From Candidatus Peregrinibacteria bacterium RIFOXYA2_FULL_41_18 (GTDB lineage Bacteria; Patescibacteriota; Gracilibacteria; UBA1369; UBA12470): a stretch of DNA of 63,389 bases. A program made the position numbers and the translations under genes. Location: the NCBI GenBank assembly GCA_001788795.1, contig MFXH01000008.1:13593-76981 (forward strand), given 5' to 3'. This document shows, piece by piece, positions 1,277-40,829 of this stretch. Numbering within the stretch: the first letter of the stretch is position 1; every line of letters begins with the position of its first letter. The notes under the pieces are model-generated. The model was not told the DNA's origin. It did no database searches and saw only the letters and a program-made list of their open reading frames with translations.

Positions 1277-3070
1277 ATGAAAGCAGAAGAAAACAAAAAT
1301 AAAAATCCGGAAGAAGCGCATGAGGAGCCTATTAAAAAGGTTTCCAAGAAAAAGGTTATTTACGTTGAGCTTGATGAAGAAATAACCTCTATTTATGACC
1401 GCGTGAAGAGACTTCAGATCGAGGATATGTATCTTGTCGTACCTGAGAGATCTGTGATCTTGCAGAGCGTTGTGAATTTGAAAATTTTGAGAAGAAAACT
1501 GTCCGAATTAGGCAAAAAGATTTTCATCATTACCACAGATCCCGTCGGCACCAAATTGGCGATTCAAGCCGGAATTAAGGTTTTTGATAAGATCGAAGAT
1601 AACAGCAAGGTGACTAAGGAAATCTTGAACCCTAAATTAAAAATACAGCCGATAAACGCTTCGGCGAACGAACTCGATTACGACTCCCCTTCCAGAATAC
1701 CGCAAAAGAAACTCTCGATTCTCGAATTGGTTAAGAGCGCAAAGGATGGGAAGAAAAGTTTCAGTTTCAAATCCTTGTGGGATGCTCGCAAAAAATACGC
1801 TAAGGCTATAAAAGATCGCAAACAATTTTCTTATGGCGGTCCGAATAAGAAAGCACTCACTACCCTCGTTATTGCGAGCGTTACTATGTTGCTGATTATT
1901 TTTTACGTTGCTCTTCCGGGGGCAACGGTTTATCTCACAGCCGAATCTAACGTATTGGAGGCAAGTGCAAATATTACATTGGCTGACGCCGATCTTAACA
2001 AGCTCGAACTCGATACGCACCCTTCTTATACAATAGCTTCTTATGAAGTTGAGGCGACTGTTTCTGTAAACGTCACTTATGATGCTACGGGTCAGTTGTT
2101 CAGCGGAGAAAATGCGACAGGCACAATCACTCTTACCAATGAAGCTGATTACAAGTGGGATTTGGTGGCTTTCACAAGGCTTCAAAGTCCCGATGGCATT
2201 GTTTTCAGAACACAGCAATTTGTTTCCATACCTGCCGCTACGGAAGCCGGCGCTTCAACGGTCGATGTCTATGTTATTGCGGATGAGAAAGATGCAAATG
2301 ATCAAGTTATCGGAGATCGCGGTAATCTGGCGGCAAATACTCATTTTATTCTGCCCGGGTTGAAAGAGAGCAGTCAAACTCTTCTGTATGGCACGAATGC
2401 GGCTCCTTTATCAGGAGGTAAAACCGTCGTTACCAAGTATGTTACCGCGGAAGATATTGAAGCTTCTTATTTGAGAGTAGAGTCTGAGTTAAACACGGCT
2501 ATTGAATCAACTCTCAACACCAAAGTTATCGAAATGAATTCCACTCAGGGAAGCGATGACTTGGTCTTACTTAAGGGGTATGGAGCTTTCGAAGCTGGAG
2601 AGCCTTATGTAACAACTCCATCTGTAAAAGACGGCGATCAGGTTGAGAACTTCCAAATATCCGGCACGATGAATGTCTCCGGAGTCGCTTACAATTCAAG
2701 CGAGCTTGTAAATATATTGAGAAATGAATTGAAGTTGCATAAAAGTCCGGAAAAACAACTTCAATCGATAGATGAAGGTTCTGTTTATTACGAAATAATA
2801 GATTTCGATGAATCTTCCGAAAAAATAAAAATCACCGCAACGATTAAAGGCGTAGAAGAGTATGTTCTAGATCCTGAAGAGGAGAGCGGTGCTCTTCTTA
2901 TAGAAAAAATCAAAGATCATGTAGCAGGAAAAACTATTGATGAAGCGAAAGATTATATCGAGAATTTACCTGAAATAAATAAGGTTGAAATCAAATCATG
3001 GCCAGTATGGGCTCCGACTATTCCGACCGTGAGAGAGAATATTAAGATAAAGGTTAGTGAGGAGGCATAA
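1277..3070 (+). CDS. Baseplate-J-like single-pass membrane protein
   Basis: The product has 597 residues. A charged cytosolic N-terminal region with a Rossmann-like pattern (residues about 25-110) is followed by a basic linker. One transmembrane helix lies at about residues 193-214 (TLVIASVTMLLIIFYVAL), and a long beta-rich extracytoplasmic part follows. The last 90 residues, with AGKTIDEAKDYIENLP and a closing KSWPVWAPTIP, match the baseplate-J-like proteins often found beside an FtsA/PilM-like gene in CPR genomes (recalled, not searched). It follows the FtsA-like gene by 41 bp. An envelope-assembly or pilus-related role is inference from the neighbour. Confidence 0.65.
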   Translation: MKAEENKNKNPEEAHEEPIKKVSKKKVIYVELDEEITSIYDRVKRLQIEDMYLVVPERSVILQSVVNLKILRRKLSELGKKIFIITTDPVGTKLAIQAGIKVFDKIEDNSKVTKEILNPKLKIQPINASANELDYDSPSRIPQKKLSILELVKSAKDGKKSFSFKSLWDARKKYAKAIKDRKQFSYGGPNKKALTTLVIASVTMLLIIFYVALPGATVYLTAESNVLEASANITLADADLNKLELDTHPSYTIASYEVEATVSVNVTYDATGQLFSGENATGTITLTNEADYKWDLVAFTRLQSPDGIVFRTQQFVSIPAATEAGASTVDVYVIADEKDANDQVIGDRGNLAANTHFILPGLKESSQTLLYGTNAAPLSGGKTVVTKYVTAEDIEASYLRVESELNTAIESTLNTKVIEMNSTQGSDDLVLLKGYGAFEAGEPYVTTPSVKDGDQVENFQISGTMNVSGVAYNSSELVNILRNELKLHKSPEKQLQSIDEGSVYYEIIDFDESSEKIKITATIKGVEEYVLDPEEESGALLIEKIKDHVAGKTIDEAKDYIENLPEINKVEIKSWPVWAPTIPTVRENIKIKVSEEA

Positions 3071-3119
3071 GGCAGAAGGCAGAAGGCAGAAGGCAGAAGG
3101 CAATAGGCAGAAGGCAGAA
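3071..3119 (+). repeat. GGCAGAA heptamer tandem repeat
   Basis: Seven consecutive 7-bp units begin directly after the stop codon at 3070. Six are GGCAGAA and the fifth is GGCAATA. Nothing coding is visible here. The repeat lies between the membrane protein gene and proS. Confidence 0.9.
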
Positions 3120-3176
3120 GGAATGGTAAAATGCTGGTGATTTTATTTTGTCTTTTATCCTTTAGCTTTTATCTTC

Positions 3177-4595
3177 ATGTCAAAAGTAACTCCGCAATCG
3201 CAAGATTTTTCCAAATGGTATCTCGATGTGGTTAAAGAAGCCGATATGGCAGATTATTCCAAGGTAAAAGGCTGCATGGTCATCAAGCCTTACGGATATG
3301 CTATTTGGGAAAACATTCAACAAGAGCTTAATCAACGAATCAAAGAAGCCGACGTTAAAAATGTTTACTTCCCTTTATTGATACCTGAGAGTTTTTTGAA
3401 TCGCGAGAAAGAGCATGTCGAAGGATTTGCTCCTGAATGTGCTGTTGTAACACATGGCGGCGGCAAGAAATTGACAGAGAACTTAGTTATACGTCCGACG
3501 TCTGAAACTATAATGTATGACACTTTTTCCGAGTGGATTCACTCTTATCGCGATTTGCCGCTCAAGATAAATCAATGGGCAAATGTTGTAAGATGGGAAA
3601 TGCGAACGCGTCCTTTTTTGCGTACAACTGAGTTTTTGTGGCAGGAAGGTCATACCGCTCATTCAGATAAAGCAGGTGCCGATACTGAAGCTCATCGCGC
3701 ACTTCAAATGTACAAGGATTTCGATCGTGAATTCCTAGCTCTCCCTGTACTAACAGGTGTAAAAAGCGATAAGGAAAAGTTTGCAGGTGCTCTATACACA
3801 TTAACAACAGAGGCTCTAGCAAGAGACGGAAAAGTCATTCAAGCCGGTACTTCACACAATCTTGGCACAACTTTTGCAAAGTCTTTCAATATCAAATATC
3901 AAGATGTGGATGGTGAATTAAAAGAGGTTTGGCAAACATCTTGGGGCGTTTCCACAAGACTTGTCGGCACTTTAATTGTCGTCCATGGTGACGAAAAAGG
4001 GCTCAGACTTCCTCCTAAAGTAGCACCTATCCAAATTGTGATTGTGCCTATTTATAAAACAGATGAAGAGCGTGATGCCGTATTGAAAGCTGCAAATCAA
4101 ATCAAAAACGATCTTAAAAGATTCCGCGTTCAAATCGACGAAAGGACAGGTGTGACTCCGGGATTCAAATTTGCAGAATGGGAAATAAAAGGTGTTCCTG
4201 CACGCATCGAAATCGGTCCTCGCGATCTTGCGAAAAGTGAATGTGTGATTGCCAGACGCGATACTGGCGAGAAGGTTTCTTATGAACAGTCTGAATTGTT
4301 TACCGCTATGCCTAAACTGCTTGATGAAATTCAGGAGAATTTATATCAACAAGCTCTTAAATTTCAACAGGACAATACTCGATCAGCTGACAACTATGAA
4401 GATTTCAAGAAAATCCTTGAAGAGAAAGGTGGGTTTATCATTTCCGGATGGTGCGGTAATGAAAAATGCGAATCAAAAATAAAAGATGAAACCAAGGCGA
4501 CTATAAGGGTAATTTCGGAAGAAAAACATTCTGGGAAGTGTCTAATGTGTGGAGAGAAGGCGGACAAGAAGGTTTATTTTGCGAAGGCGTACTAG
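3177..4595 (+). CDS. proS: Prolyl-tRNA synthetase, archaeal/eukaryote-type
   Basis: The enzyme charges tRNA-Pro with proline. At 472 residues it has the short architecture without the bacterial editing insert. Class II motif 2 is visible (WANVVRWEMRTRPFLRTTEF, near residue 140), as is the motif 3 region GVSTRLVGTLIVVHGDEKGL near residue 265. An anticodon-binding domain follows, and the C-terminal tail carries zinc-ligand pairs (CGNEKC and CLMCGEK), typical of the archaeal-type enzyme. The ATG at 3177 fits the family N-terminus (DFSKWYLDVVKEADMADY). The gene stands between two short tandem repeats. Confidence 0.95.
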   Translation: MSKVTPQSQDFSKWYLDVVKEADMADYSKVKGCMVIKPYGYAIWENIQQELNQRIKEADVKNVYFPLLIPESFLNREKEHVEGFAPECAVVTHGGGKKLTENLVIRPTSETIMYDTFSEWIHSYRDLPLKINQWANVVRWEMRTRPFLRTTEFLWQEGHTAHSDKAGADTEAHRALQMYKDFDREFLALPVLTGVKSDKEKFAGALYTLTTEALARDGKVIQAGTSHNLGTTFAKSFNIKYQDVDGELKEVWQTSWGVSTRLVGTLIVVHGDEKGLRLPPKVAPIQIVIVPIYKTDEERDAVLKAANQIKNDLKRFRVQIDERTGVTPGFKFAEWEIKGVPARIEIGPRDLAKSECVIARRDTGEKVSYEQSELFTAMPKLLDEIQENLYQQALKFQQDNTRSADNYEDFKKILEEKGGFIISGWCGNEKCESKIKDETKATIRVISEEKHSGKCLMCGEKADKKVYFAKAY

Positions 4596-28522: not shown

Positions 28523-29566
28523 TTATTCTACATGCATAATTCCTCCGCCTATAACCTTCGATCCCTTATAAAAAACTATCGATTGTCCTTCGGTGAAAGC
28601 CCTGATCGGTTTACTGAATTTAACTCGCGATCCTTCAAGAATGCATTTATCAAGATGTCCAAGATGTCGAACTCTCGCTTCGGCTCGCAATTTGCCTTTT
28701 GGCTTCAATCCGGATACAAAAGCAAGATCCGAGACGCCGATCTCGTTATGCCACAAATACTTATCCTCTCCAACAAGCAGTATGTTTTTTGACCTTTTCG
28801 TCCCGACTACATATAGCGGCTCCTTCAGCCCTCCTATCATGAGCCCTTCTCTTTGACCGCAAGTGTAATAAGGCAGTCCGCGATGGCGTCCGCGCTTATT
28901 GCCTTCCATATCAACTATCAACCCTTCCTTGAAATATTTTTCAGGTAAATTTCTCTTGAGAAAATCCGTATAAATCTTGTCAGGTATAAAACAAATTCCT
29001 TGGCTTTCAGGTTTCTCCTCCACGAATTGAAGTCCGATTTCACGAGCGATCTTCTTGGTTTCGACCTTGGTCATTTCACCAAGAGGGAAAAGTATATGCT
29101 TCAACTGGTCTTGTGAAAGTCTGTATAGAAAATAGCTTTGGTCTTTTCGCACGTCCGAGCCCTTGTGCAGCTCATATTTATTCCCGACCTTCTTGATGCG
29201 CGCATAGTGTCCCGTCGCCAAGTAGTCCGCTCCCATTTTGCGTACGGTTTTCAGAAGTTCGCCGAATTTGATTTCCTTATTACAGACAACGCATGGATTT
29301 GGGGTTTCTCCGTTTCTATAAGCCTTCAAATAATAATCGACTATTTTTTTCTTAAAAATATCTTTCAAATTCACCACGTGAAAAGGGATTCCTATACGTT
29401 TGCAAACTTCTTCGGCATGACGGGTGTTTATCTCTTTTGTTTTTGACGGAGCATCCGACCATAAGTCGAGATGAACTCCGAAACATTCATGTCCTTGTTT
29501 TTTCAGGGTTGCTGCCGTTACAGAAGAGTCAACACCTCCCGACATCGCCACAGCAATAGTTGCCAT
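28523..29566 (-). CDS. mnmA: tRNA-specific 2-thiouridylase
   Basis: The enzyme makes 2-thiouridine at position 34 of Lys, Glu and Gln tRNAs using ATP and a sulfur carrier. The 347-residue product has the PP-loop AMSGGVDSSV at about residue 10, first catalytic Cys in TPNPCVVCN (about 98), DYLATGHYARI, KDQSYFLY, second Cys in ESQGICFI (about 194) and the C-terminal beta domain. Its length is normal. It is divergent from the RelA/SpoT gene, with a 57-bp gap. Confidence 0.97.
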   Translation of the reverse strand: MATIAVAMSGGVDSSVTAATLKKQGHECFGVHLDLWSDAPSKTKEINTRHAEEVCKRIGIPFHVVNLKDIFKKKIVDYYLKAYRNGETPNPCVVCNKEIKFGELLKTVRKMGADYLATGHYARIKKVGNKYELHKGSDVRKDQSYFLYRLSQDQLKHILFPLGEMTKVETKKIAREIGLQFVEEKPESQGICFIPDKIYTDFLKRNLPEKYFKEGLIVDMEGNKRGRHRGLPYYTCGQREGLMIGGLKEPLYVVGTKRSKNILLVGEDKYLWHNEIGVSDLAFVSGLKPKGKLRAEARVRHLGHLDKCILEGSRVKFSKPIRAFTEGQSIVFYKGSKVIGGGIMHVE

Positions 29567-29623
29567 TGTAATTTATTTATTAAAAGCGATAATGATTTTA
29601 GCCTACCACTCGACTTCTGCAAA

Positions 29624-31669
29624 ATGAGAATATCCACCATAATAAAATCCGCGAAAGCGTATATGTCCGACTTGAACGAAAATCGGATTATTGATGCTTA
29701 TAAATTTGCCGAGGCTGCGCATGCTAATCAGAAGAGAAAAGACGGTAGTGAATATATTCATCACCCATTGAGCACTTGTGAAATACTCACTCATTTGAAG
29801 GTTGATGAAGACACTCTTGTCGCGGCGTTATTGCATGATGTACCTGAGGACACACACATTACTCTAAAAGAGATCGAAACCAAGTTCGGGAAGTCCGTTT
29901 CTTCCCTTGTAGAAGGCATAACCAAGCTCTCGAAAGTCCATTACAAGGATGACATGGCCGAACGGCAAATCGAGTCTCTTAAGAAACTTTTTTTTCATAG
30001 CGCAAAAGACCTTCGAATAATCCTTATCAAGCTTGCAGACCGCCTGCATAATATGCGCACTCTTGAACACTTGCATGATATTGGGAAAAGACTTCGCATA
30101 TCAAAAGAAACTCTCGAGATATATGTACCGATTGCGAATTTGCTAGGTATATGGGAAATAAAGTCCGAACTTGAGGATTTGAGTTTTATGCATATTTATC
30201 CGGCTGATTTCAAAAGGATTAAGAAGCTTGTTGATGAAAGTGCCCTGAAAAGAACAGATATCTTGAAAGAAACTCTCCATAAAATAAGATCTGCCCTTCG
30301 CACCAAGCACGTTAAGGCGGAAGTTCATGCGAGGCAGAAAAATCTCTACAGTATTTTCAAGAAAATGATGCTTACCGGTAAAACTTTTTATGATATTTAT
30401 GACCTTATAGCTCTGCGAATAATCGTCGATTCGATAGATGAGTGCTATAAATCTTTCGGAATTGTTCACCAGACTTTTCGCCCGAAACATAAAAGAGTAA
30501 AAGATTATATCGCCGTTCCAAAAGTTAACGGATATCAGAGTTTACATACAACGGTTTTCGGACCTGTCGGAACCATAATCGAATTCCAAATCCGCACTTA
30601 CAAGATGCATATTGAAGATGAGTATGGTATCGCGGCTCATTATTTTTATGACACATTGAAGGATAAGCGCGTCCGCAAGAAAAACTTGTCTGATGCGCTT
30701 AAGAAACACTCGGAATGGGCAAGAAAAATTCTCGATATCCAAAAAGGCATCAAGAGCAATTATGATTTCATGCAAGTTCTTAAATTCGACATTTTTCAGG
30801 ATAGGATTTTTGTCTTCACGCCAAAAGGCGAGGTTATCGACTTGCCTTACGGAGCGACCGCTATAGATTTCGCCTATGCCATACACAGCGATATCGGCAA
30901 CCATGCAGTTCTGTGCGAAGCAAATGGCGAAAGATTGCCAATGACAACCAGATTAAGAACCGGCAACACAGTCAAAATCATAACTTCCCAAAGTATAAAA
31001 GGTCCTCAAAGAGATTGGCTTACCATTGTAAAAACCGATGTCGCACGAACAAGAATAAAAGGATTTTTTAAACAGGAAAGCAGTAGCAAAAATTATCATG
31101 CAGGCATGGATTTGCTCAAAAAAGAACTCGCTCTTTTTGGTCAGGAAAAACTTAAAAAAGTGCCGAAACAACGGGAGAAAGAGATATTGGAAAAATTCGG
31201 ATCTGCAAATATGAAAAAGCTTATTACCGCAATGGGCGAAGGAACTGTAAACATAAAGGATGTTCTTAACGAATTCTATACAAACCGCGAACTGCTTGGA
31301 CGCCGTACTGCAGTTAACGACTATTTGGATAATGCGGAACGCGTATCAAGAGATCGTCTCGCAAATTCAATACCGATGATCTCCGGCAACGAGGAATTGA
31401 AAGAAAAAGCCAGTTCGAAATCTCTGCGTATTTATCGTGTTGAAATCAATATCATTTGTAAAGATCGTGTTGGGCTACTGCGCGATATTACCTCTACTCT
31501 CGCCGGCTTAAGCGTAAACATACATAATCTACGCGTTTTCGATACCGACACTCAATCCGTGAAAAAAATCGTTACAACAATCGAGGTATATGATCTCGAC
31601 CACCTTGAAAGAGCTTTGCGAGCATTATCGCTTATCGAGAATACAATCAATGTTTCGAAGTCCGTTTAA
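29624..31669 (+). CDS. Bifunctional (p)ppGpp synthetase/hydrolase, RelA/SpoT family
   Basis: The product makes and degrades the alarmone (p)ppGpp. The ATG at 29624 is chosen; the frame is open to 29471 but would run through the start of mnmA. The 681-residue product has the HD hydrolase domain with HHPL and HDVPED (about residue 71), so hydrolysis is likely active. The synthetase domain (about 220-340) has YDLIALRIIVDS and VPKVNGYQSLHTTVFGP. A TGS domain (about 389-450) and a C-terminal ACT domain (about 604-681) follow. It overlaps the trpR-like gene by 23 bp at the 3' end. Confidence 0.95.
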   Translation: MRISTIIKSAKAYMSDLNENRIIDAYKFAEAAHANQKRKDGSEYIHHPLSTCEILTHLKVDEDTLVAALLHDVPEDTHITLKEIETKFGKSVSSLVEGITKLSKVHYKDDMAERQIESLKKLFFHSAKDLRIILIKLADRLHNMRTLEHLHDIGKRLRISKETLEIYVPIANLLGIWEIKSELEDLSFMHIYPADFKRIKKLVDESALKRTDILKETLHKIRSALRTKHVKAEVHARQKNLYSIFKKMMLTGKTFYDIYDLIALRIIVDSIDECYKSFGIVHQTFRPKHKRVKDYIAVPKVNGYQSLHTTVFGPVGTIIEFQIRTYKMHIEDEYGIAAHYFYDTLKDKRVRKKNLSDALKKHSEWARKILDIQKGIKSNYDFMQVLKFDIFQDRIFVFTPKGEVIDLPYGATAIDFAYAIHSDIGNHAVLCEANGERLPMTTRLRTGNTVKIITSQSIKGPQRDWLTIVKTDVARTRIKGFFKQESSSKNYHAGMDLLKKELALFGQEKLKKVPKQREKEILEKFGSANMKKLITAMGEGTVNIKDVLNEFYTNRELLGRRTAVNDYLDNAERVSRDRLANSIPMISGNEELKEKASSKSLRIYRVEINIICKDRVGLLRDITSTLAGLSVNIHNLRVFDTDTQSVKKIVTTIEVYDLDHLERALRALSLIENTINVSKSV

Positions 31670-31949
31670 GCGCAATCACGTACCCGTTTTCACCGTCCTT
31701 CAGCCATGCTGCGACTCTTGTTATAGTTGCTGTGCTTATTCCTGTTTCTCGAGCTATTTGGCGATAAGGTATGCCTCGTTTTATCATTCGCGCAGCTTGC
31801 CATCTTTCAGTCATCGCCTGTATTTCGGTTATCGTGCATAGATCTCTAAGAAATCTTTTGCATTCCGAAACTGTTTTCATCGACAAAAACGCGTTGCACA
31901 AATCAGGCAACTGTTTTTCCCACTCATTAGATGTTTTGCTCTTTTGCAT
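31647..31949 (-). CDS. TrpR-like repressor (YerC/YecD family), last gene of the his operon
   Basis: The product has 100 residues from the ATG at 31949, 16 bp after the hisIE stop; an ATG at 31991 would overlap hisIE by 26 bp. It carries the TrpR-family helix-turn-helix: CTITEIQAMTERWQAARMI, then IPYRQIARETGISTATITRV. Members of this family (YerC/HisR) have been proposed as histidine-biosynthesis repressors in Gram-positive bacteria, and its place in this operon agrees. A candidate operator is the inverted repeat at 40058-40075. Direct binding is inference. Confidence 0.85.
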   Translation of the reverse strand: MQKSKTSNEWEKQLPDLCNAFLSMKTVSECKRFLRDLCTITEIQAMTERWQAARMIKRGIPYRQIARETGISTATITRVAAWLKDGENGYVIALKRTSKH

Positions 31950-31965
31950 ACTGCCTAGATAATAG

Positions 31966-32559
31966 CTATTTCTGCCGAGTCCGCAACTCATTTAATATCG
32001 ACTCAAGCGATATACCTCTAGCCACAAGCAAGACTAACAAATGATAAATAAGATCCGACACCTCCTCGATCATACGCTTTTTTGATCTGTTTTTTGCGGA
32101 TATTACGACTTCGACAGATTCTTCTCCTACTTTCTGAGCTATTTTATCAATACCCGACTTGAATAGTGATGTCGTGTAAGAATTCTCGGGTTTCCGCTCA
32201 AACCTATCTCTTATAAGTGAATAGAGATTCTTAATAAATCCTATGTCGTTTTCTCTCTTTAAATTGAAGCAAGAGTATGTACCCTTGTGACATGTCGGAC
32301 CTTGAGGTTTCGCCAAAATCAATACCGTATCATTGTCACAATCCGCCATTATCGATACCACGTTAAGCGTATTGCCTGAAGACTCGCCTTTCATCCATAT
32401 TTTTTGACGTGTTCTGCTCCAGAAAACAACTTTTTTAAGTTTCTGCGTTTTTCGAAAAGACTCTTTATTCATAAAACCTACCATCAACACGTCTTTTGTA
32501 TCCGCATCTTGTATTACAGCCGGAATCAGTCCGCCCATTTTTGAGAAATTTAATTTCAT
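31966..32559 (-). CDS. hisIE: Bifunctional phosphoribosyl-AMP cyclohydrolase / phosphoribosyl-ATP pyrophosphatase
   Basis: This enzyme does steps 2 and 3 of histidine synthesis. Residues about 1-105 are HisI: WSRTRQKIWMKGESSGN, MADCDNDTVLI and GPTCHKGTYSCF with metal-binding cysteines. Residues about 110-197 are HisE: SLFKSGIDKIAQKVGEESVE and EEVSDLIYHLLVLL. The 197-residue length is normal for the fused type. The ATG overlaps the end of the hisA-hisF gene by 4 bp, indicating coupled translation. Confidence 0.96.
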   Translation of the reverse strand: MKLNFSKMGGLIPAVIQDADTKDVLMVGFMNKESFRKTQKLKKVVFWSRTRQKIWMKGESSGNTLNVVSIMADCDNDTVLILAKPQGPTCHKGTYSCFNLKRENDIGFIKNLYSLIRDRFERKPENSYTTSLFKSGIDKIAQKVGEESVEVVISAKNRSKKRMIEEVSDLIYHLLVLLVARGISLESILNELRTRQK

Positions 32560-34028
32560 ATATTTACGTTAATATTGTTTTCCCACAGATAATTCTTCAA
32601 TTCTTGTATTTTTATATCCCCATAATGGAACACGCCGGCTGCCAGCACCGCATCAACTTTTGCTTTATCCAAAACGTCTAGGAAATCTTGCAAACATCCA
32701 GCTCCGCTTGATGCTATAACAGGGATCTTCACCGTGTCGGTTATTTTTTTGAGCAACTCAATATCAAAACCTTTTTTGGTGCCGTCCCTGTCCAAACTGT
32801 TAACAAGCAGTTCGCCTGCCCCACATTCCTCCATCATGCGAGAGAATTCTATTGCTTCCAAATTTGTCTCTTCGGTTCCCCCTTTTATATAGAGTTTCCA
32901 GCCGTTCTCCGCCTTCTTAGCATCCACCGATATCACAATGCACTGATTGCCAAAAGTTCTGGAAGCTTCTCTCACCAAATCCATATTTTTGACAGCAGCG
33001 GATCCTATCGAAACCTTATCAGCGCCTGCATTAAGTAGCCTTCTGATATCTTCAACCGTTCTTACTCCTCCGCCAACCGTAAACGGTATATTGATCGTCT
33101 TGGCTATTTTTTCAACCAATCCGCAAAGCGTATTCCTATTCTCCAATGTTGCCGATATATCCAGAAAAACCAGTTCGTCCGCACCCATGTCCGAATACAA
33201 CTTCCCAAGTTCAACCGCATCTCCCGCATCTTTTAACTCCTTGAAACAAGTGCCTTTTACCACTCTGCCGTCTTTCATGTCCATGCACGGTATAATCCTC
33301 CTCGCCAAATCGTTCTGCGCTTCTTGTATCGTCACCGTTCCCTCATATAACGCCTTTCCTATAATGATTCCGGCGAGATTGTTTTTCCGCAAGAGCGCTA
33401 TATCTTTTTGTGAAGATACTCCGCCTGCAACAATCACATTAAGTCCGTTTCCGGAAAACTCATTAATCATTGCGAAATTCGGACCATTCATCATCCCATC
33501 CTTCTCTATATCCGTAACAATTATCGTCTTAACGCCTGCTTCTTTTACCGATTCCAAGAAAACTTTTAATCCCATGTCGCTTTCGTTTAACCATCCTCTC
33601 GTGGCGATTTTCCCTTTTCTCACGTCAATAGAAACAATTATCCTGTTTTCTCCGAAAGTGGTAATCAATCGTTTGAGAAGGCGTTTGTCTTCGAGCGCAG
33701 AAGTGCCGATTATAACTTTTGCCACACCGTTATTGAGCAGAGTCTCCGCCGATTCGAATGTTCTTATTCCTCCCCCAACTTGCAATTCCAGATTGGTGTT
33801 TTTCGCTATCGCCAAAATCGTTTCGAGATTAACCGTTTCTCCTTTTTTTGCTCCATCTAAATCTATAACATGCAAAAACTTCGCACCTTCTTCTTCAAAT
33901 TGTTTCGCGACTGATATCGGAGATTGCGAATATTCTTTTATGCGATTGTAATCTCCTTTTGTAAGCCTGACGCATTTACCTCCTATGATGTCTATTGCAG
34001 GAATAATGATGTTTTTCAGAGGCTCCAT
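32556..34028 (-). CDS. hisA-hisF: HisA-HisF fusion protein
   Basis: The product has 490 residues made of two (beta-alpha)8 barrels. Residues about 1-238 are HisA (ProFAR isomerase) with catalytic Asp in IIPAIDIIGGKCVRL, VGGGIRT, second Asp in VSIDVRKG and DIEKDGMM. Residues about 242-490 are HisF (IGP synthase cyclase) with RIIPCMDMKDGRVVKG, VGGGVRTVEDI, SVDAKK and ASSGAG. The junction is only a few residues (IQEAQNDLARRIIPC), and no start codon stands at the usual HisF N-terminus. HisF needs HisH (next gene upstream) for ammonia. The fused enzymes catalyse consecutive steps, so ProFAR product may be passed on directly. All catalytic residues are kept. Confidence 0.95.
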   Translation of the reverse strand: MEPLKNIIIPAIDIIGGKCVRLTKGDYNRIKEYSQSPISVAKQFEEEGAKFLHVIDLDGAKKGETVNLETILAIAKNTNLELQVGGGIRTFESAETLLNNGVAKVIIGTSALEDKRLLKRLITTFGENRIIVSIDVRKGKIATRGWLNESDMGLKVFLESVKEAGVKTIIVTDIEKDGMMNGPNFAMINEFSGNGLNVIVAGGVSSQKDIALLRKNNLAGIIIGKALYEGTVTIQEAQNDLARRIIPCMDMKDGRVVKGTCFKELKDAGDAVELGKLYSDMGADELVFLDISATLENRNTLCGLVEKIAKTINIPFTVGGGVRTVEDIRRLLNAGADKVSIGSAAVKNMDLVREASRTFGNQCIVISVDAKKAENGWKLYIKGGTEETNLEAIEFSRMMEECGAGELLVNSLDRDGTKKGFDIELLKKITDTVKIPVIASSGAGCLQDFLDVLDKAKVDAVLAAGVFHYGDIKIQELKNYLWENNINVNI

Positions 34029-34029
34029 G

Positions 34030-34614
34030 TCATAAGTTTAAAAAATTATTTAACAGTTGTTCTCCGGATGAACCTGATTTTTCGGGATGGAATTGAACTC
34101 CATAAAAATTATCCTTGTGCACAACAGATGCAAAACACCTCCCGTAATTTGTAACCGCCACTTCGTTTTGCAACTTCGCCTTGAAATAATATGAGTGTGC
34201 GAAATAGAAGAAACTCCCATCCTGCACTCCTTTCATCAATGGATCGATTTTGCGTAAACTAACCTTATTCCATCCAATGTGAGGCACTTTTAAATCAACA
34301 TCCAGTCTTTCAACAGATCCTTCTATAACAGACAATCCTTTCGTACTGTCTTCTTCGGAAAAATCACTAAGCAATTGCATGCCCAAACAGATTCCGAGAA
34401 AGGGGTTTTTTATGCTTTTTATAACCTTATCGAGACCTGTCGCCTTCATCTGTTCCATCGACGACCCAGCCCTTCCCTGACCGGGGAAAATGACTTTTTC
34501 GGCTTCCAAAATCATTTTCGCATTCGCAGTCACAATACATTCAAATCCCAACCTCTCCACTGCGTTTTTTACAGATCCGACATTGCCCGAATTGTAATCT
34601 ATTATTGCTATCAT
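34030..34614 (-). CDS. hisH: Imidazole glycerol phosphate synthase glutaminase subunit
   Basis: HisH supplies ammonia from glutamine to HisF. The 194-residue product is a class I glutamine amidotransferase with nucleophile Cys in [11 protein letters not shown] (about residue 76) and the HxE pair in [13 protein letters not shown] (about 176). The N-terminus [14 protein letters not shown] is typical. It overlaps hisB by 4 bp (ATGA) and ends one base before the hisA-hisF start, so partner subunits should be made together. Confidence 0.97.
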
Positions 34615-35201
34615 AATTTTCCTTTTGTTGATGGTAATATGTTTTTTCCTCTTTCGGTTTTGCCAGCAGCCATTCTCAACGCTCGCGCGAACGCCTTGAA
34701 GATGCCTTCCGCCATGTGGTGCTCGTTTCTCCCGTATTTGATATTGATGTGCAGATTTGCACTCATACCATCTGAAACAGCCTTGAAAAAATCCTCAAAC
34801 ATTTCTGTCGGCATATCACCGATTTTTTCACGCTTAAATTTCACATTCCAGACCATATACGGGCGACCTCCCAAGTCTATTGCAACTTCTGCCAAAACTT
34901 CATCCATCGGCAACAAGAACCCATATCTCTCGATACCTTTTTTATCACCCAGAGCTTCTTTTATGGCTTGTCCAAGGCATATACCCACGTCTTCAATCGT
35001 GTGGTGTTCGTCAACATTCAGATCTCCTTTCGCCTCTATGTCTAAATCTATCAAAGAGTGTTTCGAGAAAAGCTCAAGCATGTGATCCAGGAACCCTATT
35101 CCTGTTTCAATTTTATAAACACCTTTTCCGTCCAGATTGAGAGACAGTGTTATTTCCGTTTCCTTTGTCTTTCTGGATATTTTTGCAATACGTTTTTTCA
35201 T
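34611..35201 (-). CDS. hisB: Imidazoleglycerol-phosphate dehydratase (dehydratase domain only)
   Basis: The 196-residue product is a stand-alone dehydratase for step 7. Metal-binding motifs are [10 protein letters not shown] (about residue 71) and [17 protein letters not shown] (about 167); [15 protein letters not shown] is at about 35. The phosphatase half found in the E. coli HisB is absent here and is fused to HisC in the preceding gene. It overlaps both neighbours by 4 bp. Confidence 0.97.
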
Positions 35202-36742
35202 AATGATTTATTTAATGATGCAATTAAGTTTCCGTTTGTCGGAATTGATACGAATTTAATCCCTACGTTCTTCGCGAACTCTTCGTCAGTCTTCCTGTCG
35301 CCACACATGAATGAATTCTTGAAATCGATCTCTTTCAGAAAATCTTTGACAAGTCCTGTCTTCGGCTTACGACAAGAGCAGTTCTCCTCCTTGAAATGAG
35401 GACAGATTAATATTTTACTAAATTCGATCCCGTTTTTTTTGAAAATTTTCAACATCGCGTTTTGCGGTTCTTCAAAAGTTCTCTTCGGAAAAGATTTCGT
35501 GCCAAGACCATCCTGATTGGAAATCATAACCAGTTCATATCCTAGCGTTTTTAGCTTCTGCAAGCCCTCTATCGCGCCATCAAGAATCTCGAGCTTATCA
35601 ATGCTGTCTATCTGAAAAGTATCCTGAGGTTCAAAAATTAAAGTCGCATCTCTATCCAAAAATGCGTACTTTTTCAAACGAGGCAAGCAGTTTACTCGAT
35701 ATACATCAATGAATTTCTTCATTTGATCGACAGTTCCAATGCTGACTCTCAAAGTGTTTTCGATATTTGTCCTGTTTTGCGGACGAACAAGCACCCCTTT
35801 TTCAATAAGTTTTTTATAGGTTGCATCAGCCTTTTCCGGCTTGAACAATATGAAATTCGACCCTGACTTGTAGTACTTGACGTTATTCTTTTCGAAAAAC
35901 TGTTCAACCATCGGCTTTGCTTTTTGCATGACCTCATTTGCGTAGTTTTTCATTTCATCAATATCTTCGATTACAGCAAGCGCAGCAAAATAGGCCGGCA
36001 TGTTTACATCGTAAGGCCCTCTCACCTTCATCATCTCATCTATGTGCGTTTTTGAAGCTACGACATAACCTATCCTTAAAGATGGCAGACCAAATGCTTT
36101 TGAAAATGTTCGCGTAACGATTATGTTCGGATATTTCTTGATCAATCCTGCGGCAGTTATCCCGCAGAATTCGAAGTATGCTTCATCTACATATACGACG
36201 GCATTCTTTGCTTTTTCGGCTATTTTCTTGATCGTATCCAAGCTTGCAACCGTCGCCGTAGGATTGTTCGGATTGCATATGACGATAATTTTCACTCTAT
36301 CATCAATCATTTTCAAAACTTCATTTTCAGGGAATGACAGATCTTCTTTTTTGTATAAAGGAGTCAGTATCTCGTTCCCAGAAATCGACGCGCATTGATA
36401 GAACATTGCGAAACTCGGTGTTGGAATTATCGCTTTGTCTCCAGCCTCGGTAAAAGTTCTGAATATAATATCCATACCGTTGTCAGACCCGTTCGTAAGC
36501 ATTATCTGATTTTTTTCCACTCCGACATATTTGGCGATTTTTTCGCGCAAAGTGAAATATTCCGGATAGACTTGTACTTTTGATTTCTTGATAAATTCCT
36601 CCAAAGCTTTTATAGCTTTTTTATTAACCTGCACCGTTCTTTCGTTGAAATCCAGCAAAATGCCTTTGAAGCCGGACCTCCCGTTAAGAGGAGGGCTGTA
36701 AGGTGTCATTTTTTGGATTCTTTTGATTGCGAGATTTTTCAT
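35198..36742 (-). CDS. hisC-hisN: HisC-HisBN fusion: histidinol-phosphate aminotransferase plus histidinol-phosphatase
   Basis: The product has 514 residues. Residues about 1-350 are a PLP aminotransferase: [16 protein letters not shown], and the PLP lysine in [16 protein letters not shown]. Residues about 354-514 are a HAD phosphatase of the HisB N-terminal type: nucleophile motif [18 protein letters not shown], zinc ligands in [15 protein letters not shown] and [11 protein letters not shown]. HisC makes histidinol phosphate and HisBN removes its phosphate, so the fusion joins consecutive steps 8 and 9. In E. coli the same phosphatase is fused to the dehydratase. It overlaps hisD and hisB by 4 bp each. 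Confidence 0.95.
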
Positions 36743-38019
36743 AAATTTGTGGTTAATCTTATTTCCATAGCTTTTTCATGTGCATCCAGACCTTCCTGCC
36801 TTGCCATCTGAGAAACGATTGGGCATAGAGCCTTTGCACCTTGTTTTGTTATCTCTTGAAATGTTATGGACTTCTGAAAACTTGAAACCGAAACTCCGCT
36901 ATACGCCTTTGAGTATCCGTAAGTAGGCAACGTGTGATTTGTACCGCTCGCGTAATCGCCAGCGGATTCGCATGAATATTGCCCAAGGAATACCGATCCG
37001 GCATTTATGATTTTCGAAATGTACTCATTAGGATTTTCCACATTCAATATCAGGTGTTCGGGAGCATATTTATTCGCAAACTCAAGAGCTTCCTCAATAT
37101 CTTCAACAATCAATGCAAAACTGTTTTTTATAGCTTTCATAGCTATCTCCTTTCTCTTCAGCGTTTTAATCTGACGATTTACTTCTCCAATTATCATTTC
37201 GGCATTGTTGTCATCCGTACAAACTAAAACTGCCTGAGAATCCTCTCCGTGTTCGGCCTGTGACAACAGATCGCTTGCAACAAACTCCGGACGCGCATAT
37301 CTATCCGCTATAACCAGAACTTCCGATGGTCCGGCCGGCATATCTATCCCAGCACCTTCAGGATCGATCGAAACAAGCATTTTCGCGGCAGTCACATATG
37401 AATTCCCCGGACCGAATATCTTATAAACCTTCGGTACGGATTTCGTACCGTAAGCCATCGCTGCAATGGCTTGAGCTCCGCCAATTTTGAATATTCTTTT
37501 GATTCCGCAAATCTGCGCTGCAAAAAGAATTATATTCGGGACTTCACCTTTTGAATTCGGCGGCGTACACATAATTACGTCCTTACATCCTGCAATTTTC
37601 GCCGGAATCCCTAACATCAAGACCGTGGAAGGCAAAGGCGCCGTTCCTCCCGGTATATATATTCCAATCTTCTCTATACCTCTACTTTCAACAAAACATT
37701 TTACTCCTTTCATTGTCTCGACCGATTGTCTGCCGAGCAATTTAAGAGAATGAAATTTTTCTATATTAGACGCTGCAGATTCAAAAGCTTTCTTTGTTTC
37801 ATCAGGAATCGATTTTGTCGCTTTTGCGATTTCCTCATCTGATACTTCAAGCATTTGCAAGTCCGCATAATCAAATTTCTTCGCGTAATCGAACAAAGCG
37901 GAGTCGCCCCTGTCTTTCACATCCGCGATTATAGCCTGCGCCGTACTGAATGATCTTGCAAAATTCACTCCACTTCTTCTGCATAAATTTTTCGCATCTC
38001 CGAAATAAAGTTTTTTCAT
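36739..38019 (-). CDS. hisD: Histidinol dehydrogenase
   Basis: The enzyme makes the last two NAD-dependent oxidations to histidine. The 426-residue length is normal. Signature segments are VYKIFGPGNSYVTAAKMLVS, DMPAGPSEVLVIAD, DLLSQAEHGEDSQ (zinc/catalytic) and YAPEHLIL with catalytic Glu-His; the C-terminal SAGDYASGTNHTLPT block is present. It starts 5 bp after hisG and overlaps hisC by 4 bp. Confidence 0.97.
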   Translation of the reverse strand: MKKLYFGDAKNLCRRSGVNFARSFSTAQAIIADVKDRGDSALFDYAKKFDYADLQMLEVSDEEIAKATKSIPDETKKAFESAASNIEKFHSLKLLGRQSVETMKGVKCFVESRGIEKIGIYIPGGTAPLPSTVLMLGIPAKIAGCKDVIMCTPPNSKGEVPNIILFAAQICGIKRIFKIGGAQAIAAMAYGTKSVPKVYKIFGPGNSYVTAAKMLVSIDPEGAGIDMPAGPSEVLVIADRYARPEFVASDLLSQAEHGEDSQAVLVCTDDNNAEMIIGEVNRQIKTLKRKEIAMKAIKNSFALIVEDIEEALEFANKYAPEHLILNVENPNEYISKIINAGSVFLGQYSCESAGDYASGTNHTLPTYGYSKAYSGVSVSSFQKSITFQEITKQGAKALCPIVSQMARQEGLDAHEKAMEIRLTTNL

Positions 38020-38024
38020 ATATT

Positions 38025-38612
38025 TTAATTTAAAAATTCTTTATCTGAAAAACCGTTCTGTATCAGACATGCTTCCGACTCAAATATATCTATAATTTTT
38101 TTCAACCCGTTTTCTTTCAGCGTTTCACCGGTTTGCGTTATGTCACATATTGCATCCGAAAGCCCTAGCAAAGGCGATATCTCAACCGATCCTCTGACCT
38201 CTATAATCGAGGCATTGATTTCATTTTCCTTCAGAAACCTTTTCAAACTGTTCGGATAAGAAGTCGCAATTCTTTCTCCTTCAAGATCAGAAATTGTTTT
38301 TATACCTGAATTTTTCGGGACCGCTATAACAAGCTTACATTTTCCGAATCCGAGAGATTTGTTCTTTTTCACATAGAACTTACGCTCGTTGAGAACATTC
38401 GCGCCAACAATCCCAAAATCTGCAGCTCCGCTCTGTACATAAACCGGAATATCACCATGCCTTACATATAGAATCTCCACGTTTTGCCCTTCGCACTTTC
38501 CGATTAATCCTCTATCACTATTTAATATTTTCAACCCGAAACTCTTAAGGAATTCAACGCTTTCCTCCTTTAGTCTACCCTTGTTTTGTATTGCAATTCT
38601 AATTGGCTTCAT
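38025..38612 (-). CDS. hisG: ATP phosphoribosyltransferase, short form
   Basis: HisG does the first, committed step, joining ATP and PRPP. At 195 residues it lacks the C-terminal ACT-like regulatory domain, so it is the short form (HisGS), which in studied bacteria needs the HisS paralogue HisZ. Visible: RIAIQNKGRLKEESVEFLKS at the start, ADFGIVGANVL, and the C-terminal DAICDITQTGETLKENGL for PRPP binding. No hisZ is present here, and the gene overlaps hisS by 14 bp, so HisS itself may be the partner. Confidence 0.96.
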   Translation of the reverse strand: MKPIRIAIQNKGRLKEESVEFLKSFGLKILNSDRGLIGKCEGQNVEILYVRHGDIPVYVQSGAADFGIVGANVLNERKFYVKKNKSLGFGKCKLVIAVPKNSGIKTISDLEGERIATSYPNSLKRFLKENEINASIIEVRGSVEISPLLGLSDAICDITQTGETLKENGLKKIIDIFESEACLIQNGFSDKEFLN

Positions 38613-39894
38613 AATATCCTTTTATGTATTCGACAAGCTGACTGTCCGGAATAGTCTTCTGTTTACCGGTATCCATACGTTTAACGGTTACCGTCTTTGC
38701 CAGTATTTCTTCCGGACCTTGTATGACAACAAAAGGGATTTTCTTTTTGTCCGCATACTTGAACTGTTTATTCAACTTATCCAAACCCAGATATATTTCC
38801 GAATTGATTCCCGCTTCCACAAGCGAGTTATATGCTGACAGAGATTTTTTCAATGCGGATTCATCAAATACTGTCACCAAAACATTTGAACAAGATTTAT
38901 TTTCAACAACAAGCATCCTCTCTTTAAGAAGCATCATTATCCTTTCAAAACCGAAAGCCACTCCGACTCCCGAGAAATTCTGGTCGCAAAACATCGAACA
39001 CAAATCATCATATCTTCCGCCCGCGCATATCGCCCCAAGAGAAGAGTTTTCGCTTACGACTTCATATATTACCCCTGTGTAATAATCCAATCCTCTCGCC
39101 ATCATTGGATCGAACTGTATCCATTTATCGTCAACCCCGAGATCCGAGGCGTATCTCATAAAAGTCTCCAATTCTGAAACATCAGAGTCTCTCAATTTAT
39201 CCATAGTCTCCTTATTAGAGTTCATCGGTTTCAGGCGACTCAAAACTTCCAGACCGTTTTCCACTCCAATATTACTCAATTCTTGGACCATCTGCTCTTC
39301 TCCTATTTTGTCTTTTTTGTCTATGATCCTGATCATCGGAGTTACCTTCGAATCCGGGATCCCAAAAGACTTCAGAATCGCATTTATAAGCCTCCTTGAG
39401 TTTATTTTAATCTTAAAATCATCTATCCCCAGTTCTAGAAGAGTGCTGACTATTATTTTTGCGATTTCAGCTTCGCAAATAAGGCTCTTTGAACCGATAA
39501 TATCTATATCGCACTGATAAAATTCTCTTAACCTGCCTTTTTGAGGTTTCTCCGCCCTCCATACCCTTTGTATTTGGTATCTTTTGAAAGGCACTTCAAG
39601 ATTGTTGTAATTCGCCGCGAAATATCTCGCGAAAGGCACCGTAAGATCATAAGGGAGAGCAATTCCTCTACCTCCCGCATCTTTGAAATTGTAAGTTAAT
39701 TTCTCGCCTTCTTCTCCATATTTTCCAAGTATTGTTTCAGCAGGACACAGTATAGGCGTTTCAACTGGAACATATCCGAATTTCTCGAACATTTTCTGTA
39801 TAATATCCATGATTTTCTTCCTTTGAATTACTTCTGAAGGCAAGAAATCTCGCGTTCCTTTCAGTATTATCGGACTGATTTTTTTTGCATTCAT
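38599..39894 (-). CDS. hisS: Histidyl-tRNA synthetase, first structural gene of the his operon
   Basis: The enzyme charges tRNA-His. The ATG at 39894 gives the family N-terminus (PIILKGTRDFLPSEVIQRKK); an in-frame start at 40002 lies inside the attenuator and is rejected. The 431-residue product has motif 2 (VWRAEKPQKGRLREFYQCDID), the histidine-specific motif RGLDYYTG (about residue 285) and a C-terminal anticodon-binding domain. Those features mark a real HisRS rather than a HisZ paralogue. It is co-transcribed with hisG and lies just behind the attenuator, so charging capacity and synthesis share control. Confidence 0.95.
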   Translation of the reverse strand: MNAKKISPIILKGTRDFLPSEVIQRKKIMDIIQKMFEKFGYVPVETPILCPAETILGKYGEEGEKLTYNFKDAGGRGIALPYDLTVPFARYFAANYNNLEVPFKRYQIQRVWRAEKPQKGRLREFYQCDIDIIGSKSLICEAEIAKIIVSTLLELGIDDFKIKINSRRLINAILKSFGIPDSKVTPMIRIIDKKDKIGEEQMVQELSNIGVENGLEVLSRLKPMNSNKETMDKLRDSDVSELETFMRYASDLGVDDKWIQFDPMMARGLDYYTGVIYEVVSENSSLGAICAGGRYDDLCSMFCDQNFSGVGVAFGFERIMMLLKERMLVVENKSCSNVLVTVFDESALKKSLSAYNSLVEAGINSEIYLGLDKLNKQFKYADKKKIPFVVIQGPEEILAKTVTVKRMDTGKQKTIPDSQLVEYIKGYYEAN

Positions 39895-39907: not shown

Positions 39908-39946
39908 AAAAAATAAAAAGACCGCTTATATAAGCAGTGAACGGTC
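39908..39946 (-). terminator. His attenuator terminator
   Basis: In transcript order the arms GACCG (39946-39942) and CGGTC (39924-39920) close a stem that can be extended by TT/AA past a bulge. The T-rich tract TTTTTATTTTTT (39919-39908) follows directly. The first arm shares GACC (39943-39946) with the antiterminator hairpin, so the two structures exclude each other. It ends 13 nt before the hisS start codon. Confidence 0.8.
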
Positions 39947-39978
39947 ATAAATCGAGAATCAATTCTCGACCTACGACC
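39943..39978 (-). promoter_or_regulatory. His antiterminator hairpin
   Basis: In transcript order the arms are GGTCGTAGGTCGAGAA (39978-39963) and TTCTCGATTTATGACC (39958-39943), with loop TTGA. All 16 positions pair, three of them as G-U. The leader peptide stop codon UAG (39973-39971) lies inside the first arm. When this hairpin forms it uses GACC and blocks the terminator. Confidence 0.8.
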
Positions 39979-40054
39979 TTGCGATATGATGATGAACGTC
40001 AAAACCGGATGGCGTAATTGCCCTGTCGCTGATTGTTGTTTTTCCGGTCTTCAT
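39971..40054 (-). CDS. hisL: His operon leader peptide with three consecutive His codons
   Basis: An ATG at 40054 opens a frame of 27 codons ending in TAG at 39971-39973. Near its end are three CAT codons in a row (39994-39986), within GFDVHHHIARS. It lies between the promoter (40084-40110) and the antiterminator/terminator pair, and the gene behind is hisS. This is the layout of a HisL-type leader. Ribosome stalling at the His codons would leave the first antiterminator arm free; reading to the stop codon would cover it. No Shine-Dalgarno is visible. Confidence 0.8.
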   Translation of the reverse strand: MKTGKTTISDRAITPSGFDVHHHIARS

Positions 40055-40057
40055 AGT

Positions 40058-40075
40058 GTTTTAACGTATTAAAAC
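40058..40075. promoter_or_regulatory. Candidate operator for the TrpR-like regulator
   Basis: Perfect inverted repeat GTTTTAA-CGTA-TTAAAAC lies just downstream of the predicted his transcription start, between the -10 box and the leader ATG. The operon ends with a TrpR-family gene, so it is a candidate binding site. It could also be a 5' hairpin of the leader RNA. Confidence 0.5.
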
Positions 40076-40083
40076 GTTGTCAT

Positions 40084-40110
40084 GTTATACCAAGCCCGAA
40101 AACTTGTCAA
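40084..40110 (-). promoter_or_regulatory. His operon promoter
   Basis: Minus strand: TTGACA (40110-40105), a 15-bp spacer and TATAAC (40089-40084). The -35 box is consensus; the spacer is short. Predicted start is near 40077. Confidence 0.75.
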
Positions 40111-40115
40111 ATGTT

Positions 40116-40829
40116 TTAGTATTTCTCGATCATATCGCTTAGATCCAATACATCTTCCATGAAAGCGCGGCTCACTATTACACCTGCCGCACCGGCATCT
40201 TTTAATAATTTAATATCATATTCGTCCGCAATGCCTCCGGAGCTGTAAACGGCGATTCTTCCATCGGTTTCATAAATCAACCTCTCTATCTCGTCAAAAT
40301 TCGGATGGTATAGCGCACCTTCCATTTCCAAATCCTTGTAAATAATCTGCGTCACACCTGTTTTCTCAACCTCTTTTGCCAATTCGGTTACTTCCGGCGC
40401 AGAGCCTTCAAGTGTTAAATCCGTATCAACCATATTTTTTCTTCCTTTTATACCAAAAATTATTTTATCACTGCCGTATTTTGCCAGAGCCTCTTTTAAA
40501 ATACGTATCGCAGATACACCCAAAATCACCCTTGATACCCCAAGTTTGAAAGCTTTCTCCACAGAGTCCATGTCTCTTATTCCGCCAGCCAGCTGTATTT
40601 CCGAATCAACTCCCGAGCAGATTTTTTTGATTATTGTCGTATGGTAAAGGCTTCCCGTTTTACTCCCATTCAAATCTGTTATTTGTATTGTTTTTGCGCC
40701 TTCCGACTCAAATAATCTTGCTGTATGAAAAGGCTCTTTATAATAAACTCTCTTTTGCTCGTTCTCTTTCCCCTTGTAGAGCGACACGCATTTACCGTCC
40801 AGCAGATATATGTTTGGAATTATTTTCAT
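40116..40829 (-). CDS. HisA paralogue lacking both catalytic aspartates
   Basis: The 237-residue product aligns over its full length with HisA. The N-terminus reads IIPNIYLLDGKCVSLYKG where HisA has PAID; the catalytic Asp is Tyr8. The second catalytic Asp (VSID in the fused HisA) is Lys128 in IIFGIKGRKN. The phosphate-binding loops stay recognisable (QLAGGIRDMDS; YSSGGIADEYD; AAGVIVSRAFME). It was thus kept as a folded ligand-binding barrel but cannot work by the normal HisA mechanism. It has its own promoter, 6 bp before the his promoter. A pseudoenzyme, regulator or altered isomerase are possible. Confidence 0.85.
   Translation of the reverse strand: MKIIPNIYLLDGKCVSLYKGKENEQKRVYYKEPFHTARLFESEGAKTIQITDLNGSKTGSLYHTTIIKKICSGVDSEIQLAGGIRDMDSVEKAFKLGVSRVILGVSAIRILKEALAKYGSDKIIFGIKGRKNMVDTDLTLEGSAPEVTELAKEVEKTGVTQIIYKDLEMEGALYHPNFDEIERLIYETDGRIAVYSSGGIADEYDIKLLKDAGAAGVIVSRAFMEDVLDLSDMIEKY

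Follow-up and report, generated by a model that had tools for sequence, protein, structure and literature searches.

What controls the his operon in the genome of Candidatus Peregrinibacteria bacterium RIFOXYA2_FULL_41_18? The assembly (1.24 Mb, 99% complete) has among its nearest named GenBank relatives Candidatus Peregrinibacteria CG2_30_44_17 and Bin_503. A preliminary description of the 63,389-nucleotide stretch analysed here (the window) had placed a transcription attenuator in front of the operon. The present analysis points to two layers of control. It appears quite likely that HisR repression at a palindrome is combined with a His-codon attenuator downstream of it. The class of the latter, a ribosome-mediated His-codon attenuator in a Peregrinibacteria his operon, is well supported by sequence comparison.

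The his operon

The operon reads, on the minus strand, hisZ/hisS-hisG-hisD-hisC (fused to a HisB N-terminal phosphatase)-hisB-hisH-hisA::hisF-hisIE-hisR.

38599..39894, minus strand: first structural gene, HisS/HisZ-like, above the NCBIfam hisS cut-off and below the hisZ cut-off
31966..38612, minus strand: hisG, hisD, hisC-HisB-N phosphatase fusion, hisB, hisH, hisA-hisF fusion and hisIE
31647..31991, minus strand: hisR (TIGR02531, YerC/YecD family), the operon's last gene

The last gene matched TIGR02531 with 90.2 bits (cut-off 42.2). Its product ends in AWLKDGENGY and the gene lacks both the HH codons and the 3' pairing (P1, see below) known from the hisR genes of relatives. The HisS-like copy in the operon exceeds the hisS cut-off and retains the anticodon-binding domain, yet hisG is of the short form that requires HisZ; a second HisS-like gene lies outside the operon (G000:C10:48842-50068). 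hisA and hisF form a single ORF of 490 residues (32556-34028), and the hisC-phosphatase fusion occupies 35198-36742. Two neighbors flank the region: a RelA/SpoT-like gene (29471-31669, called from reading its translation), which adjoins hisR and converges on the operon end, and a HisA-like paralog (40116-40829; 173.7 bits, under the NCBIfam hisA cut-off of 228.95), which adjoins the promoter upstream and whose start overlaps a weak operator-like site, TTTTAATACATGAAAA.

No match to Rho above cut-off was found in this 99% complete genome. Intrinsic termination is thus the likely route, and Rho-dependent polarity was rejected for the same reason.

Promoter and predicted HisR operator

40082..40110, minus strand: promoter, TTGACA (40110-40105) with either TAACAT (40087-40082, 17-nt spacer) or TATAAC (40089-40084, 15-nt spacer)
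40058..40075, no strand assigned: predicted operator of HisR (YerC, TrpR family), GTTTTAATACGTTAAAAC, directly 3' of the -10 box

TTGACA-17-TAACAT scored best among the promoter-like matches in the scanned region (10 of 12 positions). The preliminary description had chosen TTGACA-15-TATAAC; both boxes are there, and the TATAAC alternative follows a TGG, in the manner of an extended -10, but TAACAT fits better because the his operon of a closely related genome (G001) has TTGACA-17-TATTAT at an equal distance from its palindrome. The 18-bp inverted repeat reported in that description lies at 40075-40058; what had been missed is its probable role. It holds TTTA-n6-TAAA, the published HisR core TTTAnnnnnnTAAA, and the 16-mer TTTTAATACGTTAAAA occurs without mismatch only once in the genome, at this site. 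The same layout of promoter and operator was seen at the other HisR-type promoters found, and many relatives have the element just past the -10 box of hisR or of the his operon. In the survey that described this motif for Firmicutes, Actinobacteria and Synergistetes (PMC9413887), which did not include the lineage of the window, histidine is the corepressor of HisR and histidine-dependent operator binding was demonstrated for R. gnavus HisR. On this basis we regard the palindrome as a predicted HisR operator, and such an operator would place the his operon under dual control.

A leader ORF with three adjacent His codons

39971..40054, minus strand: leader ORF of 27 codons, MKTGKTTISDRAITPSGFDVHHHIARS followed by a stop codon, sequence read directly
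39986..39994, minus strand: CAT CAT CAT, proposed sensor codons

The leader with its three CAT codons, as well as the position of its stop codon (TAG, 39973-39971) within the first arm of the downstream hairpin, agree with the preliminary description. A run of three His codons is expected with a probability of about 0.001 in a 27-codon leader of such composition. The start context, TTAAAACACTATG, is the same as at hisR starts of relatives; in several of them the order operator-TTAAAACACT-ATG, with which the window leader begins, opens hisR itself. No Shine-Dalgarno sequence precedes the ORF; most genes of the window lack one too, since only 6 of 47 have it and a control position scores 4 of 47.

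Rfam searches returned only tRNAs at gathering score in the window, and nothing significant in the leader. The His_leader family (RF00514) did not reach gathering score anywhere in the window and had no hit in the leader even at E<=10; the T-box model matched nothing in the window. A T-box or other Rfam family in the leader was rejected on these grounds. T-boxes do control his genes in some Firmicutes (PMC9413887), but given these searches another RNA regulator of this kind, T-box or riboswitch, is highly improbable in front of this operon.

Hairpin P1 and the terminator

39943..39978, minus strand: proposed antiterminator hairpin P1 with 16 pairs and a TTGA loop (arms 39978-39963 and 39958-39943)
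39920..39946, minus strand: intrinsic terminator, extended form GACCGTT...AGCGGTC, with GACC common to P1
39921..39938, minus strand: intrinsic terminator, short 7-bp form ACTGCTT-ATAT-AAGCGGT, compatible with P1
39908..39919, minus strand: T-rich tract TTTTTATTTTTT (T5AT6)

The 16-bp hairpin with its TTGA loop was found as first described, its consecutive pairs being 13 Watson-Crick and 3 G-U. Alone it folds with -21.6 kcal/mol, and in a scan of both strands of the 63-kb window for hairpins with wobble pairs allowed (at least 12 bp, loop 3-8) it came out longest. The complete leader is more stable in folding than shuffled versions of itself (z -3.35; 1 of 200 equally good). The first arm of P1 begins 16 nt downstream of the start of the CAT run. 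A ribosome reaches about 12 nt past its A site. With this footprint the arm is free when a ribosome stalls at the His codons and covered when it stands at the stop codon.

The terminator had been described as sharing GACC with P1. This holds for the extended form, in which GACC (39946-39943) pairs with GGTC (39923-39920) to give a stem of -8.0 kcal/mol that reaches the T tract, but the 7-bp hairpin (-6.3 kcal/mol) persists beside P1. The MFE structure contains P1 and the short hairpin simultaneously, and the latter keeps a probability of about 0.94 even with P1 formed, so that the two named hairpins do not strictly exclude each other and the predicted switch in the window is one between a stronger and a weaker terminator rather than on and off. 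The folding check suggested earlier returns P1 in a leader more stable than nearly all its shuffles, together with a coexisting terminator hairpin. Likewise, the order and spacing of the parts fit the proposed E. coli-like logic, but P1 removes only the GACC-extended terminator and strict exclusion of the E. coli type is unsupported by folding. The modelled switch would be partial, with a hairpin of -6.3 kcal/mol remaining before the T tract. We also noted that a 5' segment of the leader, AAGACCG (40049-40043), is complementary to CGGTCTT (39924-39918; terminator 3' arm and T tract); this pairing, or a pause-like hairpin at 40051-40002 in the MFE structure, may form part of the switch.

In the mechanism that we propose, HisR made from the last gene of the operon would bind the palindrome and repress the promoter, histidine presumably being its corepressor, and transcripts escaping repression would carry the attenuator. 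When His-tRNA is short, a ribosome would stall at CAT CAT CAT with its leading edge just before P1; P1 could then fold and weaken the terminator, and RNA polymerase would enter hisZ-hisG and onward. When His-tRNA is plentiful, the ribosome would proceed to the TAG inside P1 and cover the first arm, GACC would be freed, the terminator stem would extend to the T tract and transcription would stop.

Stand-alone leaders in related genomes

We searched 353 genomes of the class for an operator followed by ATG (pattern TTA-N5-TTAAAACRCT-ATG), and added one more operator site by hand. The exact matches included hisR starts (G236, G044, G076, G048), an unrelated ORF of 506 residues (G087) and four short ORFs; a fifth short ORF, in a genome of the window's own family (G002), came from the inspection of operator sites. 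There are thus five stand-alone leaders in five genera, the window (G000) among them, all at one position relative to the operator.

G001: MTQNQNNSTPRYMTHHHS, in front of the his operon
G002: MITLAVYKKHHPAHCR, in front of a radical SAM gene
G027: MNSLFLPSTRPITAAQPHHRGNGYLLVAS, in front of hisG
G031: MEDFLFINIVEILHHHTGGVRWAHP, in front of a gene without Pfam match

All five contain adjacent His codons (HH or HHH), and downstream of each come a paired region and then a terminator. By base shuffling the chance of HH is 2-5% per leader and about 6e-8 jointly. The peptides are otherwise unrelated, and homology between them was rejected, since those of the window and G001 have only HHH in common. 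In the leaders of G001, G002 and G031, about 10-16 nt separate the start of the first His codon from the first P1 arm, which, as in the window, puts this arm just beyond the edge of a ribosome stalled there; the stop codon falls inside or beside the arm in the window, G001 and G002. HHRGNGYLLV in the G027 peptide is similar to HHGxGGYxLVL, with which HisR ends, and might be a relic. Inspection by eye revealed no His leader upstream of five his-operon or hisS loci without hisR (L007, L112, L124, L009, L010).

hisR in the place of the leader

In most other relatives with a his operon, hisR itself is the first ORF, separated from hisZ or hisG by a terminator. The codons for GGYxLVL at the 3' end of hisR pair with the spacer directly before the terminator, or into it (this is P1 of the hisR loci), and the codons for HWLHHG stand just upstream. 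The longest such P1 has 24 continuous pairs (L002). When hisR ends were exchanged among 27 loci, own pairing (-25.7 kcal/mol) was 11 SD better than permuted pairing (-16.7 kcal/mol, sd 0.8; 0 of 20000 permutations), an excess seen despite the conservation of the HisR protein. Related hisR loci also show double compensatory changes in P1. The hisR form extends to other classes of the phylum (G389, G622, G433), and some hisR genes with HH and P1 precede non-his genes. The hisG-bearing operons of the order were distributed as follows; four further loci were cut or unclear (G062, G074, G068, G085).

Stand-alone leader: G000, G001, G027
hisR leader: G006, G010, G021, G024, G066, G076, G013, G058, G040, G042
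Neither form, operator present without leader or terminator: G017, G028 (family f16)

Relatives whose his operons lack the His run or the paired arms had been named as evidence that would speak against attenuation. The nearest relative, G001, keeps both and, across the order, three operons plus about ten have either form; only G017 and G028 clearly have neither. As a mechanism class, ribosome-mediated his attenuation has gained from the comparison, with HH in five leaders and a homologous layout inside the hisR of relatives.

P1 (z<=-2) was present in 20 of the 27 YerC genes with the first His of LHHG and in 3 of the 55 without it (82 genes scored; Fisher 2e-10). Most genes with HH and P1 belong to one weakly resolved clade and only two independent pairs lie on well-supported branches, so this count alone is no proof. 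The HH codons could instead have been kept for the protein, in contact with operator or histidine, their link to P1 being one of shared descent only, and other YerC clades do conserve C-terminal His clusters (HHH, HRHHR) whatever genes lie downstream. We think this improbable, though the least so of the alternatives. HisR lacks the combination exactly where a short HH leader stands in its place: in the five genomes with stand-alone leaders its ends read AWLKDG, RWLTHG, HWLKDG, HWLNHG and QWLKNG, and the first His with P1 occurs in 0 of 5 against 20 of 23 (p 6e-4). The His codons and P1 hence stay with the leader position and not with the protein. Moreover, the leaders are not HisR proteins, and conservation for the protein would touch the hisR form and not the window leader.

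The His clusters of other YerC families are a separate observation. In family f33 the protein ends, directly before the stop codon, in HHH or HH tails (GAHHHTNT, GGHHQS, LAHHHTSNPHEGRDMY, HHHPKSASPAGSGA), and f31 has HRHHR after the domain; in both families the clusters stand ahead of his and non-his genes alike. The f33 HHH tails (L136, L158, L167, L179, L186, L194) were considered as fused leader peptides and not counted as leaders, since they also precede non-his genes.

Coming back to attenuation, the hisR and stand-alone forms suggest a common scheme. We lean towards the view that hisR doubles as leader ORF in Patescibacteria and that a short His peptide takes over the RNA role when hisR leaves. 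The codons for HWLHHG would sense His-tRNA and those for GGYxLVL would provide one antiterminator arm, so that a single gene would act on the operon through its protein and also through its RNA. The leader ORF of the window occupies the very position at which hisR begins in most relatives, and has like parts; the most plausible reading is that hisR moved to another place in the operon and that this ORF was left behind or built anew. The parts themselves, the operator match, the recurring His leaders, the P1 pairing in relatives and a strong thermodynamic switch in several of them are seen in the data; we infer that the leader is translated, that it responds to histidine and in which direction this evolution went.

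Strength of the predicted switch

RNAs were folded from successive ribosome positions, and terminator probabilities with the P1 arm free and covered were compared. They rose from 0.09 to 0.99 in G002 and from 0.06 to 0.96 in G031; four hisR loci (L111, L003, L146, L204) went from 0-0.08 to 0.97-0.98 and L163 from near 0 to above 0.8. Exclusion was strong or clear in G002, G031 and about ten hisR loci, and about half of the hisR loci lack thermodynamic exclusion. G001 showed no switch in equilibrium folding, its terminator and P1 having no base in common. In the hisR loci and G031 the stop codon lies another 20-36 nt downstream (in hisR about 30 nt past P1), and the His-replete state must therefore rely on moving ribosomes instead of one at rest on the stop codon.

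These figures bear on two further explanations. HisR could act alone, with the ORF and hairpins a decayed remnant of the hisR site and the terminator constitutive and partial; operator and hisR are both present, P1 is compatible with a terminator hairpin in the window as well as in G001, and G017 and G028 retain the operator without leader or terminator. We judge this unlikely, for a remnant would not preserve neighboring His codons together with a stable hairpin and a terminator in five leaders of unrelated sequence, and exclusive folding is strong in G002 and G031. Slightly less likely still is that P1 serves the stability or processing of the leader or hisR transcript, termination yielding a short hisR mRNA or an sRNA. 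P1 is very stable, and several hisR loci have a gap of 0 to +15 between P1 and terminator with no shared bases, but in 11 of the 23 hisR loci with P1 it runs 1-9 nt into the terminator arm, and the short leaders, which encode no evidently useful protein, have the arm about 10-16 nt past the first His codon.

Comparison with known systems

The E. coli trp operon carries both the TrpR repressor and the trpL attenuator. The his region of the window resembles it in uniting a TrpR-family repressor and a leader-peptide attenuator on one operon; it differs in answering, as predicted, to histidine instead of tryptophan and in having the repressor gene inside the operon, a gene that in relatives appears to be the leader ORF itself. 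With the E. coli/Salmonella his leader (RF00514) it shares a short ORF with a His run, a stem arm just past the His codons and an intrinsic terminator. Its His run, however, counts three codons where the enterobacterial one has seven, only two competing helices are clear, P1 and terminator overlap little, and a repressor operator is present as well.

In Firmicutes, Ashniev et al. (PMC9413887) described candidate his attenuators in the B. cereus group, Peptostreptococcaceae/Lutispora and Erysipelotrichales, whose leader peptides have three to five consecutive His codons directly before the attenuator structures, as here. Those attenuators were found only in lineages without HisR (PMC9413887), whereas the window has leader and HisR operator together on one operon and its relatives appear to use hisR as leader ORF. 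The HisR (YerC) regulon of the same survey is alike in its TrpR-family regulator gene and TTTA-n6-TAAA palindrome at his promoters; in the window, from a lineage outside that survey, an attenuator follows the operator.

In the non-subscription literature searched, we found no paper on leader-peptide attenuation in CPR/Patescibacteria, in agreement with the novelty claimed in the preliminary description, and no report of a repressor gene serving as leader ORF. Ribosome-mediated attenuation requires tight coupling of transcription and translation. If the proposal is true, ultra-small Patescibacteria with reduced genomes, here without recognisable Rho, would keep a two-layer control of amino acid synthesis. 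With a repressor coding sequence that also serves as attenuator leader, regulation would be compactly organised, and leader peptides could originate along this route, as leftovers of regulator genes. For comparative work, the hisR loci and the five leaders form a ready set.

Finally, HisR-type operators with HH leaders were also observed before a radical SAM gene (L293, G002, ~2765-3890) and before SLOG, HisG-like and aminotransferase genes (L163, L165), and the YerC genes of family f31 sit before RibD-like genes. The HisR regulon of Patescibacteria seems, from these gene neighborhoods, to be wider than histidine biosynthesis.
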